NCBI GenBank assembly: GCA_003833135.1 | Contig: QZLH01000134.1 | Location: 1-42,150, forward strand | Length of the DNA: 42,150 nt | Source of the DNA: Oehlia diaphana | Taxonomy: Eukaryota > Glomeromycota > Glomeromycetes > Glomerales > Glomeraceae | Reading direction: 5' to 3' | Part shown: positions 372-38,935 of the stretch, one piece after another | Layout: every line of letters starts with the position of its first letter | Numbering within the stretch: the stretch's first letter is position 1 | Program-made: the position numbers and the translations under genes | Notes under the pieces: model-generated | The model's database searches: none | Told to the model about the DNA's origin: nothing | Seen by the model: the letters and a program-made list of their open reading frames with translations, nothing else

Positions 372-3300
372 ATGAGTCAAGGTAAAAAGAATATAGCATG
401 AATATTTAATAAAAATTAGAATTATTCTAAAGTTATTAAAACAAATTTCAATATAATAAAAAACAATTTAAAGGAAGTAGCACTGAGGAATCTGAATATA
501 GTACTGAAAAACTTAGACGTAAATATGATATACTAAATAATTTGAAACGCTATTAAAATTCTTAATCATTATTATGTAAAACTAACTAAAATTATTTTAG
601 ATCGCTTACTTCGTACAATTCGTAAGTTAATAGTTATTCTATAATTAGAATAATAATGGAATTACTTATTTTTGTCATATTCTGTATACCTAAATAATTA
701 TTTGATGATTAATTTTTTACTGTATTTAACATAATATTTAAACTAACTTAACTCTTCATTTAAAAAATTATTTAATAGATCGTAAGTTATAAGTTATTTA
801 TTTAATTCTATTATTGTTATAATATTTACATATAATTTAAACTATCTAATTTCTTTATTTAAAAAATTATTAAATAATATAGGGTGTAAGTTATTTATTT
901 AATTCTATTATTACTTAATGTTATAATATTTACATATAATTTAAACTAACTAAATTCTTTATTTAATAGATCGTAAGTTATAAGTTATTTATTTAATTCT
1001 ATTATTACTTATTGTTATAATATTTACATATAATTTAAACTAACTAAATTCTTTATTTAATAGATCGTAAGTTATAAGTTTATTTATTTGATTCTATTAT
1101 TACTTATTGTTATAATATTTACATTTAATTTAAACTAACTAAATTCATTATTTAATAGATCGTAAGTTATAAGTTATTTGTTTGATTCTATTATTACTTA
1201 TTGTTATAATATTTACATATAATTTAAACTAACTAAATCTTTATTTAAAAATTATTTTGTAATTTCTTTTAGTTCGTGAGTATCATTACATAATTGTATA
1301 ATATTTGCATATAATTTAAACTAACTATTTTCTTTATATAAAAAATTATTAAATAATATAGCGGGTAAGTTATTTATTTAATCTATTATTACTTATTGTT
1401 ATATAATTTAAACTAACTAAATTCTTTATTTAATAGAATGTAAGTTATAAATTATTTATTTTTACTTATATTATAATATCCTTTAAACTAACTAAATTCT
1501 TTATTTAATAGGCGGTAAGTTATAAGTTATTTAATTATATACATGATATTAACATGTAATTAAATTAACCGAATTCTTATTAAAAATTATTGATAATATA
1601 GTTAGTAAGTTACTATCTAATTCTATAATTTACATAATATTAACATAATTTTAAACTAACTAAATTCTTCATTTAATAGATCGTAAGTTATCTAATTCCA
1701 TTATTACATATTTTTATTATATAATATTGGCATATACTAATTTAAACTAAATTTTTTATTTATAAAATTGTGTAATAATATAGCTTGTAAGTTATTTATT
1801 TAATTCTATTATTACATGGTTATATAATATTGCATATAATTTAATCGATTAAATCCTTTAAAAAATTATTTGATATTTATTTAGTTAGTAAGTCATAAAT
1901 CATTATTTAATTCTATTATTTCATATCTATATAATATTTGCATATAATTTAAATTAACTAAATTCTTTTTATTTAAAAAAATTATTCAATAATATATAAT
2001 GTATATAGCTTGTAAGTTATCTATTTAATTCTATTATTACTTATTTATATAATATTAGTTTATAATTTGAACTAATTAGTTTTTTATCTAAAAAATTATT
2101 TAATAATATAGCTCGTAAGTTATTTGTTCTATTCTTTCAGTATATTTATATAATATTGATATTTAATTTAATTCTTTATCTAAAAAAAATATTTTATGAT
2201 ATAGCAAGTAAGTTACTTATTTAATTCTATTGTAATATTAACGTAATTTAAATTAACTAAAATCTTTATTTAAAAAATTATTTATATATAGGGAGTAAGT
2301 TATTTTTATTACAACATTTATGTAATGTTTATTTTCAGCTTTATTTACTAAATTCTTCATTTGAAAAACTTAAAAAAAACTTAGATTCTTGTAAGTTAAC
2401 TTTATTAGTATATTCATGTAATAATAATTCTAGTTTAATTAATTAAACTCTATTTAAAAATTTCTGATACTTTAGTTGGTAAGTTAATTTTTACATAGTA
2501 TATTATATAAATACTATATTATATAAATACTAAGATTTTAATTTTAATATATTCCTAATTAAATTTTAGAGTAAGTATTAATTTTATTTTTTCTTCTTTA
2601 ATTTTAACAATAATAAAATAATTTCTAATTATTTATAGATATGAAGAAAAAAGTGGAAATACAATTTTAGATAAATTTATTTCTGAAAGAAAATTAAAAT
2701 GGATTTCTTATAATGAATTTAAAAATGTTGAATATCTTGATAAAGGAGGATACAGTATTGTATATAAAGCCATTTGGTTAGATAGAAATCGAAATAATCA
2801 AAACAAAGAAGTAGTTCTTAAATGTCTCAATAATTTGAATGAAAATTTAGATGAATTTTTAAATGAAGTATGATAATTATTGTTAATGTTTTTAAATTTA
2901 TTTATTTATTTATACTAATTACATATTTCTAATTTTGTGGAAGTATCATGAAAATTGTTTGAATTCAAATGAAATTATTAGTTTATATGGATTTACAAAA
3001 TTGCCATATAATTTGAATTATATGGTAGTATTGGATTATGCAAATAAAGGTAATTTAAGAAGAAATTTAACTAAAGTAATTAAAAATACTTGGAAACAAA
3101 ATTTATGTATGTTGTATAAAATTATTTCTGGGCTTCATGAAATACATGAATTAAATCTTATTCACTGTGATTTACATGATGGCAATATTTTATATCACAA
3201 CAATGAAAAGGATAAAGAGGATTTAGAAAATGATGATAATAATTTAGTTTTTATTAGTGATTTAGGATTATGCCAACCTGTAAAATCTTCTTTAAAAAAA

Positions 3301-3789
3301 GATGATATTTATGGAGTCATGCCATTTATGGCACCTGAAATTTTAAGAGGCAAACCTTATACTCCAGCTAGTGATATATATAGTTTTTCTATGATTATGT
3401 GGGAATTTACATCTGGAGTTCCACCATTTAATGATAGAGCACATGATCTTCAACTTAGTTTAAGTATTTGTAGAGGTGAACGCCCTAAAATTATTGAAAA
3501 TACTCCACAATGTTATATAGATTTAATGAAAAAATGTTGGGATAAAGATCCATCAAAAAGGCCATCTGCATCAGAAGTGAAATATGTTATTGAAAATTGG
3601 ATTTTCCGTCCTGATTATGATGAAGAAATTAATGAAGTAAAAAGCAATATTATGGAATTTACAGATGCACCGATTGAGAATAATAATCTTTCTACTGAAT
3701 CTCATCCACAAGCATATTATACAAGTCGCTTACTTAATTTTACTAGTGAAGAATTGAATGAAATTCTCAAAAGCGAAGATTTGAATTAA
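372..3789 (+). CDS. Tyrosine-kinase-like (TKL) protein kinase, N-terminus encoded by an array of micro-exons
   Basis: Inferred spliced gene; cytosolic Ser/Thr or dual-specificity kinase of the type expanded in Rhizophagus. Proposed exons: 372-381, 474-518, 601-621, twenty micro-exons between 779 and 2570 (see the repeat entry), 2639-2867 and 2944-3789. The total is 1212 nt, 403 codons plus TAA, with no stop in frame. The kinase domain is clear: glycine loop LDKGGYSIVYKA (about residues 79-90), lysine in VVLK (107), catalytic HCDLHDGN (from about 196), DLG in place of DFG (228-230), APE (252-254), and a C-lobe with DIYSFSMIMWE and RPSASEV. The start ATG is chosen because it carries phase 1 through every 3-nt exon and a 1-nt exon (2570) corrects it to the phase the kinase exon needs. 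The first two introns (382-473, 519-600) have weaker signals and are the least certain part. The acceptor before 2944 is also odd: the AG used removes two codons (W,K) that relatives usually keep. Kinase exons are near certain; the upstream exons are inference. Confidence 0.75.
601..2638 (+). repeat. Tandem array of intron-like units separated by 3-nt micro-exons
   Basis: Units of about 70-120 bp repeat about 20 times. Each begins GTAAGT (once GTGAGT), usually carries a branch-point-like CTAAC or CTAAT near its end, and ends in TAG. Between TAG and the next GTAAG lie exactly 3 nt in 18 cases: 779 ATC, 883 GGT, 970 ATC, 1064 ATC, 1159 ATC, 1273 TTC, 1362 CGG, 1437 AAT, 1512 GCG, 1602 TTA, 1680 ATC, 1784 CTT, 1885 TTA, 2009 CTT, 2112 CTC, 2205 CAA, 2292 GGA, 2476 TTG. 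Position 2385-2390 holds 6 nt (ATTCTT) and 2570 a single A. Units near 970-1240 are almost identical (recent copies); later ones have diverged strongly in the body but keep both splice motifs. Intron lengths (157,101,84,91,92,111,86,72,72,87,75,101,98,121,100,90,84,90,85,91,68) show no multiple-of-three rule, while the small exons do. Alternative reading: a minisatellite inside one 2-kb intron. Confidence 0.85.
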
Positions 3790-3825
3790 TTTATGATATG
3801 AAGTCATTAGGTATGTAATATAGTA
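3781..3825 (+). other. Frameshifted relic of the kinase C-terminus
   Basis: Just past the stop at 3787-3789 the sequence reads IYDMKSLG in another frame, followed by GTATGT, a good 5' splice site. Related kinases commonly end with a similar short tail. I infer that a small indel near 3785 created the present stop, so this protein is probably a few residues shorter than its relatives. Low certainty. Confidence 0.3.
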
Positions 3826-3999
3826 TAATAATTTGCATTTTATTTTATGTGTTATTAATTTATTTATTTTAATCATTTTATATATTAAAACTGATGAAAT
3901 TTATTAAATATTTGTGAATTCTTTTTTGAAATTTTTTTTAAGTCATATTTAATATTATGATTTATTCGACAGAAATTATTCTTCTTTATTTTATTTTAT

Positions 4000-4143
4000 T
4001 AGAATTATTTAAACACTAAGATTAGAGTAGTAAATATTTTACAAGTTTCTTGGTTTGTAATTTAAATAATTATTAGAAATATTTAAACACCAAGATTAGA
4101 GTAGTAAATATTTACAAATTTCTTAGTTTGTAATTTAATAATT
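4000..4143. repeat. Direct duplication, two copies of about 74 bp
   Basis: Copy 1 (about 4000-4072) and copy 2 (about 4073-4143) share ATTTAAACAC, then AAGATTAGAGTAGTAAATAT, then TTTGTAATTTAA, with few differences. The spacing of the shared AAACAC is 74 bp (4011 and 4085). This is a simple tandem duplication in the 3' flank of the kinase gene. Confidence 0.8.
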
Positions 4144-4204
4144 CTTTTTTTCATAACTTATCCAATTATTAAATATAAATTATCAAATTTTATTTTATTT
4201 ATAA

Positions 4205-4612
4205 TAACATTCAAAATTACAATATATGTATTTGAATTGAAAAGTTTTAACTGAACATGGTGCTATACATGATATATTTTTACAGGATGTAAAATATTGC
4301 ATTAATATGATGGTCTCCATTTCAGATTGTAACTCCCACAAGTACCAATCTACTTTTTCTTTTAAAAGTCTTTCTAAATTTTTATATCATTATTTGTAAG
4401 AATCCTTGATCGTCCTCGTAATGATAATAAATCTTCACACATCCATATTTGCGATGATTTTGGCAAATGTAAAATTTATAATCGGACAAATTTAACCATT
4501 CATTATTTAAAAAATACATATATAATATTGAATGGGGCGATGAGGGAGTAGCTATATCGGTCACAGGACCGAATGGTAGGATAAAAATGAACCACGTAGT
4601 TGTCATTTTCAC
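4205..4612 (-). pseudogene. Decayed transposase N-terminal region, IS630/Tc1-mariner-like
   Basis: Read on the minus strand, 4612-4382 is open for 76 codons. After a one-base shift near 4375 a second open stretch continues for about 60 codons to about 4205. The second stretch contains the segment LERLLKEKVDWYLWELQSEM. A block of the form 'LLKEKVDWYL-EL--EME' after a helix-turn-helix region is, as I recall it, characteristic of IS630/Tc1-mariner-like transposases abundant in Rhizophagus. The DDE catalytic part is missing, so the copy is inactive. Family assignment is from memory of the motif; the frameshift and missing C-terminus are seen directly. Confidence 0.45.
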
Positions 4613-4619
4613 AATTAAT

Positions 4620-6557
4620 GAAGGTCCCTGTAATCGATATAGTGTTATCGTTCTGACATTTTGATCATGCTTTTTTTAACTTTCTATGGATTTCATTTTT
4701 ATGCTATTTTTAATCCACTTTTATAAGGTTATATTTAAGTTTTTCCTATAAAATATTCACTTACACCATATTTTTTTACTTCACTTTATTATTAATCATG
4801 TATTGTCACTATGCCTAATAAAAATGTCGGTCTATGAAAACCTGCATGTTCCTATTGGGCTGGACGATAACAACATTTATGTAATAAAATTATAAACATT
4901 TAAAATAAAAAGATAATAAAAATAATGCACATATAAAATGCATTAAATAAAAAAAAAGTAATACTGAAATATGATGAAATCTTAAATGCTCTATGTCATT
5001 TATATTGTTGAATTTTGGCTGAAATTAAAAGAAAATCTTGGCCAAAATTAACAAAATCCGGCAATCTTCTACAGTAAACAATCTTTAGCGTTAGTTGGCG
5101 GTAAATTTTCTTCCATAAGGGATATTGGGAATGGCTTAATTTTTTGTTGGATCGAACCCATTGGACTAAATATGTCTAAACTATTAGGTAAGGAAGAGGT
5201 AAGAAAAAATTTTTTGTTGTTTCTTTCGCCAATTATGTTCTTCTTAAATTCTTTAGTTAATTGACTTCTTGGATTTTAAAGACAGCAAACAGGCTGTTTT
5301 TTTATTTCTTTTTTCCATTTCTCTACCTAATTACAACTTCTTCAAATATTTAAATTTTTTTTATAACTTTTAACATACCTCTTAAACTCAAAAATCGGTT
5401 AATGTCACGAGAAAGACATAGGAACAGATCGAATTTTTTAAAAAATTCATAATGATACGAACAATTACGAATGTTTCTGCTAAATATAGACTATTCAACT
5501 ATAAACTTCGAAACAACGTTCATTTTTATTCTTGCGCAGAAAAATTACTTTAATTTCTTTGACCAGATTAAAACTGACTTAAAGACAACTTATTAAGGAA
5601 TAAAATAATAAAAATTAAGACTTAAAGTGAGTAATATAAGGAATTTTGTGGTAATATAAGTTAAAAAATGATATTCTCTCTTTTTTTTTTATTTTAATGC
5701 GCATAGTTCTTTGAAATCGAACCAACCAGATTGATACGTTCAGTGTTTTTATTCTTTTCACTAATTGTACTTTATTTAGATTCAGGACAAGTATTCTCAT
5801 TGAATTTTTTTTTATTAGACAGGACTCAACTTTAGCTTTTTGACATCATTAATTTTAGGATAACAATTAACTGAAATTATTGTTATTTATTCAAGTACAA
5901 TATAAAATTCGTCTACCGAGTTAGTTTACAAATACAACATAAACTGCTCTTTTTTAGAAAGAAATAGAAGTATCATGTATGATAAACTAGGAAACGAAAA
6001 GCGGAGCGAAAAAAAAGATAAAACTCAGTTTTGCGATTTCATTGGATGACGTTACGTGAGGACAGAGAAACTCACGTGACTCATAATGTCACTAATTAGT
6101 CTCGCAACTTTTAACTGAATAAAATTTATAAAATTTAAACATGATAAAATGGGTTGAATGTTATATTTAGTATCTGAATTTTAGTGATACTAACTTTTGA
6201 TGATGGAAGGCTTATTTATTCAATTTACTTTAAAATTAAACGCTATTTTCATCGTCATTTTAAACATAAACAACGTAAATAATTATTAGTATCTTTAAAT
6301 TTATAAATAGTAAATAATGTTTATAGTACCTCTTAATTGTAATGAATTGGAGATAGTATTCGTAAAGTCATGTGTTGAAATTTTGGTCGAAGCTTCACAC
6401 AGACCGAACTTTGGCTGAAATTTAACCAAAAGTCGCATGACCAAATTTTTGATTGACTAGTGCAATAGAAATAGAAAATCTATTTAATCCGTATTTTTTT
6501 TAGACATATTCCAATTTGTTTAAGATAAATTAAGTTATAAATACTAATACGGTAAAT
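4620..6557. other. Gene-free A/T-rich stretch
   Basis: No open frame with protein-like composition is seen on either strand. Two CACGTGA/ACGTGAG-type patches lie near 6050-6085. A weak imperfect inverted match (GTCATG...TTTTGGT at 6367 against ACCAAAAG...CATGACC at about 6440) may be a relic of a small inverted-repeat element. Nothing firmer can be supported. Confidence 0.4.
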
Positions 6558-10852: not shown

Positions 10853-10922
10853 ATACGGTTGATCATTTTGCAACATTTGAGAACGTACCATTCTTTTTTT
10901 AAATTCAAAATTGTATGAAATA
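10853..10922 (+). promoter_or_regulatory. Conserved proximal promoter/5' UTR of copy B
   Basis: This stretch matches 15167-15239 upstream of copy D: TATACG, GATCATTTTG, AACATTTGAGAACG, ACCATT, AAATTCA, GAAATAATG. Conservation right up to the ATG suggests that the core promoter was duplicated with the gene. The initiation site itself cannot be seen. Confidence 0.45.
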
Positions 10923-11666
10923 ATGCCGACTTGGTCATTAAATTCTGACTTCTCACTTATACATAATCCTTCTTCAGTATGGTCTTACGGCTCAAAGCCT
11001 GCCAGTTATCACGTAACCGGAACGTTCAGCTTATTTACACACACAGATCCGGAACCAAATAACTATAGCGAAATAATCGCATGGTTTGGGAGTGATACTG
11101 TATGGTATACTCACTGGCTAGGTGTTTATTATAACACCAAGCCAACGAATGTTACCTTAAAGGAACCGAATAATCACACTGTATCATTCGCTGCTAACGG
11201 TGTATCTATGCATCCGGGAGACGATGGTAGATACTCTGTCATAAGATTCACTGCACCAAAGGATGGAAATTATGCCTTAAACGCAACATTTACACATATT
11301 CATAATTGTGCAAAACATTCAGGAGTTTACGTAGTATATAATAACCTAATGGCTCTTTGGGAAATAGACCTAGTCGGTCCCGGAGATTCAAAATCGTTCA
11401 AAACAGATGATAGCGGGATTACTGTAAGAGCGCATGAGCCTATCGATTTCATTGTAGGCGTTGGTCTAGATAATATCTTCAATTGCGATATGACTCTTGC
11501 TCGTGTGGATATTCATTTATTAGATCATCAAATGGAAGTTTTCGCAGTTGTTGGAATAATCGGGTTTGTACTGGGTTTTGTTTTTTGTGCTATATTAGCT
11601 TGTATCCTTTGCCGATGTTGTAAGAAGAGACATAACGTTAATTTTGGTTATATGGCTATCAACTAA
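10923..11666 (+). CDS. Copy B: beta-sandwich-like domain protein with C-terminal membrane segment
   Basis: 247 residues, no intron. The start is the ATG giving MPTWSL, because copy D begins identically at its ATG and copy E begins MTTWSL. Residues 1-200 hold a domain with NPSSVWSYGSKP near the start and RFTAPKDGNY near the middle, ending in a strand-rich block with FIVGVG. This pattern resembles a domain of secreted bacterial proteins with 'NPNG-WSYG' and 'RFTAP--G-Y' motifs, probably a jelly-roll or carbohydrate-binding type fold (inference). Residues about 206-229 are a hydrophobic span, then a basic, cysteine-rich tail (CRCCKKRH). There is no N-terminal signal peptide, so the protein is either tail-anchored or uses an unseen leader exon. 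G+C content is clearly above that of the flanks. Exact function unknown. Confidence 0.85.
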   Translation: MPTWSLNSDFSLIHNPSSVWSYGSKPASYHVTGTFSLFTHTDPEPNNYSEIIAWFGSDTVWYTHWLGVYYNTKPTNVTLKEPNNHTVSFAANGVSMHPGDDGRYSVIRFTAPKDGNYALNATFTHIHNCAKHSGVYVVYNNLMALWEIDLVGPGDSKSFKTDDSGITVRAHEPIDFIVGVGLDNIFNCDMTLARVDIHLLDHQMEVFAVVGIIGFVLGFVFCAILACILCRCCKKRHNVNFGYMAIN

Positions 11667-15239: not shown

Positions 15240-15980
15240 ATGCCGACTTGGTCATTAAGTTCTGACTTCTCTCTTATACATAATCCTTCTTCGGTATGGT
15301 CTTTCGGCTCAAAGCCCGCCGGTTATCACGTAACCGGAATGTTCAGCTTATTTACACACACAGATCCGGAACCAAATGACTATAGCGAAATAATCGCCTG
15401 GTTTGGGAGTGATACCGTATGGTATACTCACTGGCTTGGCGTTTATTATAACACTAAGCCAATGAATATTATCCTAAAGGAACCGAATACTAACATTATG
15501 ACATTTACTGCCAACGGTGTAGCTATGCATCCAGGAGACGATGGTAGATTCTCAGTCGTAAGATTCACTGCACCAAAGAATGGAAATTATGTCCTAGACA
15601 CAACATTTACACATATCCATAACTGTGCACAACATTCAGGAGTTTACATAGTATATAATAATAACCTGACGTTTTGGGAAATAGGCTTAGCCGGTCCTGG
15701 AGATTCAAAATCGTTCAAAACAACTGATAGTATTGCTGTTAGAGCAAATGAGCCTATCGATTTCATCGTAGGCGTTGGTCTAGATAATATCTTCAATTGT
15801 GATATGACTCTTGCTCGTGTGGATATTCATTTATTAGAGAATCAAATAGAATCTCCCGTAATTGCTGGATCAATCGGATTTGTATTGGGTATTATTTTTA
15901 CTGCTATTCTACTTTGTATCTATTACCGATATCGTGGGAATAGACAGAACGGTAATGCTGGTTACGAGGTTATCGGCTAA
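15240..15980 (+). CDS. Copy D: beta-sandwich-like domain protein with C-terminal membrane segment
   Basis: 246 residues, no intron, start MPTWSL. Very close to copy B throughout: NPSSVWSFGSKP, an aromatic-rich block with WYTHWLG, HPGDDGRF, RFTAPKNGNY, HIHNC and a final block with FIVGVG. The hydrophobic span near residues 205-228 (beginning SPVIAGSIGFVLG) is followed by a basic tail (YYRYRGNR) ending EVIG. The cysteines of the HIHNC and IFNC blocks are kept in all open copies apart from HIHSC in E. The tail differs much more between copies than the domain does, so the domain seems the constrained part. No signal peptide is visible. The next gene starts 865 bases downstream, the same spacing seen between the other members. 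Confidence 0.85.
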   Translation: MPTWSLSSDFSLIHNPSSVWSFGSKPAGYHVTGMFSLFTHTDPEPNDYSEIIAWFGSDTVWYTHWLGVYYNTKPMNIILKEPNTNIMTFTANGVAMHPGDDGRFSVVRFTAPKNGNYVLDTTFTHIHNCAQHSGVYIVYNNNLTFWEIGLAGPGDSKSFKTTDSIAVRANEPIDFIVGVGLDNIFNCDMTLARVDIHLLENQIESPVIAGSIGFVLGIIFTAILLCIYYRYRGNRQNGNAGYEVIG

Positions 15981-16844: not shown

Positions 16845-17720
16845 ATGACTACATGGTCATTAAGCTCTGACTTCTCTCTTATACATAACCCTTCTTCTGT
16901 ATGGTCTTACGGCTCAAAACCTACCGGTTATCACGTAACCGGAACGTTCAGCTTATTTACACACTTAGATCGGGAACCAAATGACTATGGCGAAATAGTT
17001 GCCTGGTTTGGGCGTGATACCATATGGTATACCCATTGGCTGGGTGTTTATTATAACACCAAGCCAACGGATTTTATCTTAAAGGAACCGAATACTTCCA
17101 CTGTAGCTTTTACTGCTAACGGTGTAGCTATGCATCCAGGCAATGATGGTAGATTCTCAGTCGTAAGATTCACTGCACCGAAGGATGGAAATTATGTTCT
17201 AGACACAACGTTCACACATATTCATAGTTGTGCCCAACATTCAGGAGTTTACATAATATATAATAACCTAATTACGCTTTGGGAAATAGACTTAGCCGGT
17301 CCCGAAGATACAAGATCGTTCAAAACGACTGATAAAGGAATTGCTGTTAGAGCAAATGAGCCTATTGATTTCATCGTAGGCGTTGGTCTAGATAATATCT
17401 TCAATTGCGACATGACTCTTGCTCGTGTAGATATTCATTTATTGGAGAATCAAACAGAAGCTCCCGCAATAGCTGGATCAATCGGATTTATATTGGGTGT
17501 TATTATTAGTGCTATTCTGTTTCACATCTTTTTACAATATCGCGAGAATAAACAAAACATTAATATAAATCAGTCGGAGTCGGGGTTATCAACTAAATGT
17601 AGTTATGAACTTAAGATGACTTCTCCTATTGATTTATTTTTAATTTTAATTATGAAAAATCGGGTTAAAAATTATAGCCTTATAGGGAATAGAAGTTTGT
17701 GTGACTTAATAATTTATTAA
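16845..17720 (+). CDS. Copy E: same family with an extended C-terminus
   Basis: 291 residues, start MTTWSL. The domain and membrane span (about residues 206-228) match copies B and D. After the span the tail runs NKQNININQSESG and then LSTK; at that point the other copies have GYEVIG or GYMAIN and stop. A small indel near 17570-17590 shifts the frame, so the former stop TAA (in GTTATCAACTAAATG) is read as part of ACT-AAA and translation runs about 45 residues through what is 3' UTR in the sister copies (shared TATGAACTTAAGATGA) to TAA at 17718-17720. Its 5' flank has diverged most. The gene could be functional with a new tail or be in early decay. Confidence 0.8.
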   Translation: MTTWSLSSDFSLIHNPSSVWSYGSKPTGYHVTGTFSLFTHLDREPNDYGEIVAWFGRDTIWYTHWLGVYYNTKPTDFILKEPNTSTVAFTANGVAMHPGNDGRFSVVRFTAPKDGNYVLDTTFTHIHSCAQHSGVYIIYNNLITLWEIDLAGPEDTRSFKTTDKGIAVRANEPIDFIVGVGLDNIFNCDMTLARVDIHLLENQTEAPAIAGSIGFILGVIISAILFHIFLQYRENKQNININQSESGLSTKCSYELKMTSPIDLFLILIMKNRVKNYSLIGNRSLCDLIIY

Positions 17721-38689: not shown

Positions 38690-38935
38690 AATAGAAGATG
38701 AAAGGAGTAAAAATGAGTAATGAAAAGTGGTAGGAAACAAAAAGGAGAAATAGGACATGATGAGAGATAAAAAGTAGTGATGGGAGATGAAAGAAGTGAT
38801 GGGAGATGAAAAGGAGTGATGGAAGACAAAGAGAAGTGATGGAAGACGAAAAGGAGCGATGGGAGACGAAAAGAAGTGATGGGAAGGTGAATAGGAGTGA
38901 TGGGAGACAAAAAGGAGTAATGAGACTGTAAGAAT
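38690..38935. repeat. Purine-rich minisatellite, about 20-bp unit
   Basis: About eight clear degenerate copies of AGTGATGGGAGATGAAAAGG, preceded by looser copies. The opposite strand is open over 147 codons (38958-38515) but only because the unit lacks stops there (repeating PITPFHLPS-like text), so I do not call a gene. The reverse-complement type (CTCCCATTATT, GTCTCTCATCA) reappears at the window end, 42060-42150. Confidence 0.8.

Follow-up and report, generated by a model that had tools for sequence, protein, structure and literature searches.

The gene at positions 372-3789 (forward strand) of the analyzed DNA, a 42,150-nt stretch of the Oehlia diaphana genome referred to below as the window, raises the question of whether exons of one-codon length can follow one another in a long row. 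Upstream of its kinase-coding part lie 20 borders at which an acceptor motif and a donor motif are separated by 1, 3 or 6 bases. Lone 1-nt exons, lone 3-nt exons and micro-exon genes are already known; among the literature matches listed, which covered few subscription papers and no preprints, there was neither an array of single-codon exons nor a micro-exon report for Rhizophagus. Judging from the DNA sequence (splice motifs, 3-nt exon size, phase, open frame, a 1-nt exon before the kinase exon, and spread in the genome), it is very probable that successive splicing of the 20 micro-exons builds the N-terminal tail of the kinase, and that the gene is one of a family of such arrays found throughout the genome.

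In the predicted gene, exon 1 (372-381) supplies the ATG (MSQ plus one base; donor GTAAAA), and comparable short ATG exons were recognized by eye in paralogues. It is followed by an acidic exon 2 (474-518; GSSTEESEYSTEKLR; donor GTAAAT) and a 21-nt exon 3 (601-621; donor GTAAGT). The array proper (622-2638) comprises 20 micro-exons and 21 introns, the latter measuring 68-157 nt, as had been stated for the unit bodies in the initial annotation. Seventeen 3-nt exons, each with TAG on its 5′ side and GTRAGT on its 3′ side, are distributed over positions 779-2294 (first bases at 779, 883, 970, 1064, 1159, 1273, 1362, 1437, 1512, 1602, 1680, 1784, 1885, 2009, 2112, 2205 and 2292). They are followed by a 6-nt exon (ATTCTT, 2385-2390), an eighteenth 3-nt exon (TTG, 2476-2478) and a 1-nt exon (A, 2570), which puts the kinase in frame. 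Kinase exon 1 (2639-2867; donor GTATGA) has no Pfam match when taken alone; the protein kinase domain was identified in kinase exon 2 (2944-3789, including the stop codon) by both PF00069 (E = 1.4e-33) and PF07714 (E = 2.3e-33).

Joining of these segments (372-381, 474-518, 601-621, the 20 micro-exons, 2639-2867 and 2944-3789) yields a coding sequence of 1212 nt, i.e. 403 codons with no internal stops, which bears out the earlier claim that stop-free micro-exons connect the ATG exon with the kinase exon. The micro-exons total 61 nt (1 mod 3), and the kinase frame is lost when 621 is joined directly to 2639. The window triplets are in phase 1, each 3-nt exon providing two bases of one codon and one base of the next. 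The repeat unit had been described as one intron plus one codon; the intron and the three exonic bases stand, but the triplets straddle codons. The open frame over the window triplets is, by itself, weak evidence, as an open frame is also found in 12.5% of versions with random composition and in 30% of those with shuffled order, and the case for exons in the window array is drawn from the genome-wide data rather than from the window frame alone.

Splice motifs are present at all 20 borders, as initially annotated (18 of 3 nt, one of 6 nt at 2385-2390 and one of 1 nt at 2570). The acceptor is TAG in every case, and the donor is GTAAGT at 19 borders and GTGAGT at one (1276). The window contains 20 copies of TAG-NNN-GTAAG, of which 17 lie inside the array; shuffles gave an expectation of 0.72. 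A CTAAC motif 12-60 nt from the 3′ end was found in 9 of the 21 array introns (0.6 expected) and CTRAY in 15 (4.1 expected); the looser YTRAY, present in 20 of the 21, did not go beyond chance (15 expected, largest value 20). Alignment of the 18 units with 3-nt exons showed that TAG is invariant and GTAAGT changed once, while no three-column stretch among the 45 columns aligned is less conserved than the triplet (mean pairwise identity 0.31). Twelve kinds of triplet occur among the 18. G+C accounts for 23 of 61 bases in the micro-exons, compared to 260 of 1956 in the array introns (p = 2.5e-6); the corresponding values are 37% for exons 1-3 and 21% and 27% for the two kinase exons. In the unit pairs 883/1362, 970/1437 and 1064/1512, which have close flanks, 7 of 9 triplet bases differ, against 26 of 281 aligned flank bases; these pairs were selected post hoc, and three other close pairs keep ATC, so that a faster change of array codons than of their flanks is a lead only. 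Matches to the units elsewhere in the window were short or AT-rich only.

The distribution of such units was examined in the assembly from which the window comes (108.8 Mb, 1672 contigs). The strict pattern CTAAC-N{8,35}-TAG-NNN-GTAAGTTA gave 520 matches, compared to 5 for the reversed-pattern control. With exons of other sizes the numbers were 2 (control 2) for 2 nt, 0 (control 5) for 4 nt and 7 (control 1) for 6 nt. Triplets beginning with C accounted for 100 matches, located at approximately 65 separate places by hand count. Twenty-five loci, a minority of the genome's arrays, were read and used for the tests below: the window, a first set of 18, and six held-out loci named before their sequence was seen. 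In the loci read, 619 units corresponded to 164 pattern matches; at this ratio, the 520 matches would represent approximately 1960 units genome-wide, a rough figure because these loci had been chosen for their arrays. Three further arrays, L053, L054 and L055, are located on the contig of the window (C134:52000-61999, 78000-85000 and 119500-122607). In a survey confined to array introns, very similar introns recurred at many places in the genome; introner elements are defined by near-identical introns dispersed among many unrelated genes. Viral contigs contained neither an array nor a kinase relative. One locus, L058 (1297-4291; contig C38), holds 24 three-nt units with introns of unrelated consensus (..ttcaatattttaacctttttatattacattttatag NNN gtaagtttattta) and no kinase exon 1 of the window kind close downstream; no host gene was found for it.

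On the array strand of the first 18 loci, TAG-N{k}-GTAAGT occurs 387 times at k = 3, 13 times at k = 1 and 8 times at k = 6, and 0-4 times at all other values up to 24 (opposite strand, 0-3); the held-out loci gave 167, 3 and 1, respectively, and otherwise 0-1. The peak at k = 3 in these loci is partly a matter of selection, as they were chosen for 3-nt units, but the genome-wide counts are free of this effect. On the opposite strand of L059-L064 the counts were 0-1, except for 8 occurrences of TAG-N12-GTAAGT and 5 of TAG-N16-GTAAGT. Where strict units are separated by a wide gap, the gap was inspected with a score that has no size preference: 79 of 121 gaps contained a good candidate unit, 71 of them of 3 nt (CAG acceptor in 37, TAG acceptor in 34). 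Intron lengths follow no rule modulo 3 (106, 102 and 109 in the first set and window; 41, 41 and 55 in the held-out loci).

Stop codons were counted in the frame set by the kinase, in which a codon consists of the last base of one triplet and the first two of the next (phase 1). The count was restricted to 3-nt units no more than 450 nt from a neighbor and to junctions whose intron measures 55-165 nt. In the first set and window, phase 1 stops occur at 1 of 317 junctions (13.6 expected; none of 2000 permutations was as low), compared to 49 of 317 in phase 2 (36 expected). The held-out loci gave 0 of 137 in phase 1 (4.4 expected, p 0.0034) and 18 of 137 in phase 2 (15.8 expected). In the pooled data, one phase 1 stop was found among 454 adjacent pairs versus 82 among 2314 non-adjacent or reversed pairs (p = 7e-6, an approximate value because pairs share triplets). 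The codon usage of the kinase also fits phase 1 best (-4.19 per codon, versus -4.40 and -5.08). The triplets read as codons themselves (phase 0) are likewise poor in stops, with 3 of 446 (19 expected) and 1 of 172 in the held-out loci; this shortage counts against the proposed model, which does not fully explain it.

Of the 25 loci, 18 have kinase exon 1 after the array (13 of the 18 in the first set, four of the six held-out loci, and the window). Seventeen of these show a 1-nt exon (A in 13, G in 3 and T in 1) located 70-100 nt upstream of the kinase match; in the exception, L062, the strict pattern detected none and the acceptor position shows an apparent TAA. The combination of TTG exon, intron and A exon seen in the window occurs at 48 places in the genome and at none in the reversed control, and a CTAAC-anchored pattern for 1-nt exons yielded only 2 genome matches, versus 10 in the control. 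The remaining seven loci lack kinase exon 1: L043, L046 and L061 enter masked stretches, L055 ends with its contig, L060 has only a C-terminal piece of the kinase, L050 has no kinase piece and L058 is different.

A chain search assembled 17 of the 18 arrays that precede a kinase exon 1 into 574 micro-exons, 7-57 per array; L057 was left unassembled because it has no acceptor in register. The search is blind to stops, but favors 3-nt exons and demands the kinase register at the last acceptor; starts were set by hand in L051-L054, and the L053 chain covers only the last 7 exons. The micro-exons measure 3 nt in 542 cases, 1 nt in 17, 6 nt in 12, 12 nt in two and 8 nt in one, and 547 of the 574 introns do not exceed 165 nt. 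The longest array, with 57 micro-exons, is L059; 10 were assembled in L044. Fifteen of the 17 assembled arrays are open, the stops being in L049 and L062; when the order of the 3-nt exons was shuffled within each array, 4.16 of 17 were open on average, and 15 were reached in none of 200000 draws. The micro-exon total is 1 mod 3 in 14 of the 17 (exceptions L045, L054 and L062). In L045 a second 1-nt exon was placed in the middle of the array (position 4894, array strand) and in L054 an 8-nt exon (position 1411, array strand); the totals of both deviate from 1 mod 3 despite an open frame.

The predicted tail peptides share motifs that span several micro-exons: 9 of the 17 arrays have x(D/N/H)W(F/W/Y) close to their start (in L044 counting its first exon), and 11 have (A/S)FE at their end. 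The first and last micro-exons are similar in different paralogues, which suggests that arrays have also been inherited as wholes and would be old. The initial annotation had proposed spread by tandem duplication; the near-identical neighboring units 970, 1064 and 1159 agree with this, while the similar ends qualify it. The L042 peptide (1271-5968, array strand) is strongly hydrophobic in its first part, which might form a membrane segment, and most other arrays encode charged peptides. Exon 1 of L050 and L063 reads MGQCIGK; starts of this type are potential sites of myristoylation or palmitoylation, and such a modification would bring the kinase to a membrane.

The array exons could be real and yet variably skipped, as proposed in the initial annotation, one gene giving rise to many tails that differ by whole residues. 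The frame would survive the loss of a 3-nt exon, and 72% of window versions with randomly skipped exons remained open. However, the array donors are nearly uniform and strong (GTAAGT in 489 and GTGAGT in 22 of 574, together GTRAGT in 511), which does not point to weak, optional exons, and regular skipping appears unlikely. Seventeen exon 1 and exon 2 donors, selected by eye from nine loci and the window where these exons were readable, include no GTRAGT; 12 of them follow AAAG.

Alternatively, the arrays may be relics, decaying upstream of a kinase that is now transcribed from a downstream start. Many public gene models of relatives do start at or near the kinase exon, and some loci have stops or lack kinase exon 1. 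The best 120 of the 1856 protein matches of the kinase were all named Rhizophagus; the closest kinases among the matches listed, R. irregularis P0045 and P0004, are 93-94% identical, and the predicted N-terminus is absent from both. In P0045, YEEKSGN is preceded by 20 unrelated residues, possibly a translated intron as judged from the protein alone, and P0004 starts inside the kinase. A search of the protein database with residues 1-56 of the window product returned four candidates, none of which scored, and one with residues 1-40 of the L044 product returned none. The absence of array-coded N-termini from the database weighs against the proposed gene model, yet gene finders would miss such exons. 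Against decay stand the 15 open arrays and the retention of the motifs in units whose bodies have diverged, and we regard relic status as very unlikely.

A minisatellite within a single 2-kb intron, its splice-like motifs being an unused repeat core, would account for the tandem repetition of the units (TRF periods of 94 and 189 in the window array), and tandem arrays in bacterial genomes also hold up to 51 TAG-NNN-GTRAG units. Thirty-two bacterial stretches with three chained units were found; in the 12 longest, the triplet is GGA in 344 of 344 units, at a spacing of approximately 72 bp. With one fixed triplet, against 12 kinds in 18 here, they were rejected as members of the same system and are presumably CRISPR-like. 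An intronic repeat is made very improbable by this contrast, by the position of the least conserved part of the unit between invariant motifs, by stop avoidance that is restricted to neighbors and to the kinase phase, and by the broken frame of the direct 621-2639 join. Recursive splicing, in which a long intron is removed stepwise at ratchet points with acceptor and donor almost side by side, as in the arrays, and the three bases are finally lost, is scarcely credible either, given that zero-base borders number one in the first 18 loci and none in the held-out loci, and that bases finally lost would not avoid stops in the kinase phase.

Real, successively spliced exons have partial parallels in known systems. 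The bicycle genes of aphids form a family with many small phase-preserving exons, like the arrays, although their exons are several times longer. The micro-exon genes (MEGs) of Schistosoma mansoni, according to the available part of one account (PMC10526429), have 10-20 exons, mostly of 15 bp (range 6-81 bp; 3-81 bp in the abstract), and introns of 0.1-5 kb, and encode secreted proteins. They resemble the arrays in their consecutive very short exons, mostly multiples of three (here 542 of 574 of 3 nt and 12 of 6 nt), which are hard for gene finders. The arrays differ in that the exons are mostly of 3 nt, 7-57 in a row, the introns are near 100 nt long (68-157 nt in the window) rather than up to about 5 kb, and the product matches Pfam protein kinases. 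They would thus appear to work like micro-exon genes, yet to lie outside the schistosome MEG family.

Single 1-nt exons with transcript support were described, in the sections available, for plant APC11 (PMC4674806), plant VPS55 (PMC8831610, with GTRAGT donors) and Fusarium CYP621A (PMC12940212). There too the exon is needed to keep the frame, but one is present per gene, whereas here it closes a 3-nt array in at least 17 loci. Lone 3-nt exons are reported, in the excerpts available, for Drosophila hth (PMC7392893), where the donor is GTAAGT as in many exons of that gene, and for Ganoderma gpd (PMC8379801); these have the same one-codon length but do not form arrays. Fungal stwintrons, as presented in the accessible parts of PMC8469720 and PMC9024468, likewise involve consecutive splicing over adjoining splice sites; in them, however, the inner intron interrupts a splice element of the outer one, leaving no coding sequence between the successive sites, while in the arrays three bases with coding signal separate the introns.

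As an acceptor and the next donor are three bases apart, the introns would be recognized by intron definition and excised in order. The excision of one intron would turn the triplet behind it into the end of a normal exon, whose full GTAAGT donor could be used next. A freely varying triplet cannot aid pairing with U1 RNA, so the intron side would have to carry the full consensus. The authors of the APC11 study, in the part available, considered simultaneous removal of both introns very unlikely and proposed intron definition with successive removal (PMC4674806); the mechanism suggested here would extend such one-after-another removal to chains of up to 58 introns. Arrays would grow or shrink by tandem gain or loss of units of an intron plus 3 nt, a change that keeps the frame and would allow the tail to change residue by residue.

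Taken together, these observations probably reflect an exon-per-codon architecture with about 2000 single-codon exons at 65 or more places, up to 57 in a row, joined by residue-by-residue ratchet splicing; this includes the entry of most arrays into the kinase via a 1-nt exon, and the gain or loss of an intron plus 3 nt without frameshift. The tail may, as a guess, function in docking or as a variable linker ahead of the kinase domain. If true, signaling proteins would have a system by which their tails evolve residue by residue, the window gene would be among the most finely divided genes known, and exons would have been pushed to the codon limit in large numbers, not just as an isolated curiosity. 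The arrays also raise the question of how the spliceosome removes 20 to nearly 60 introns lying three bases apart, and would make minimum exon size, splicing order and fidelity testable within one gene family. They further suggest that many public Rhizophagus kinase models do not include the true N-termini.

Elsewhere in the window, three ORFs resemble one another (SDFSLIHNPSSVWS..; 246-291 aa) and are apparently tandem paralogues; they are located at positions 10911-11666, 15240-15980 and 16845-17720, and a tandem array of a 20-bp unit in approximately 8 copies is present at positions 38758-38922.
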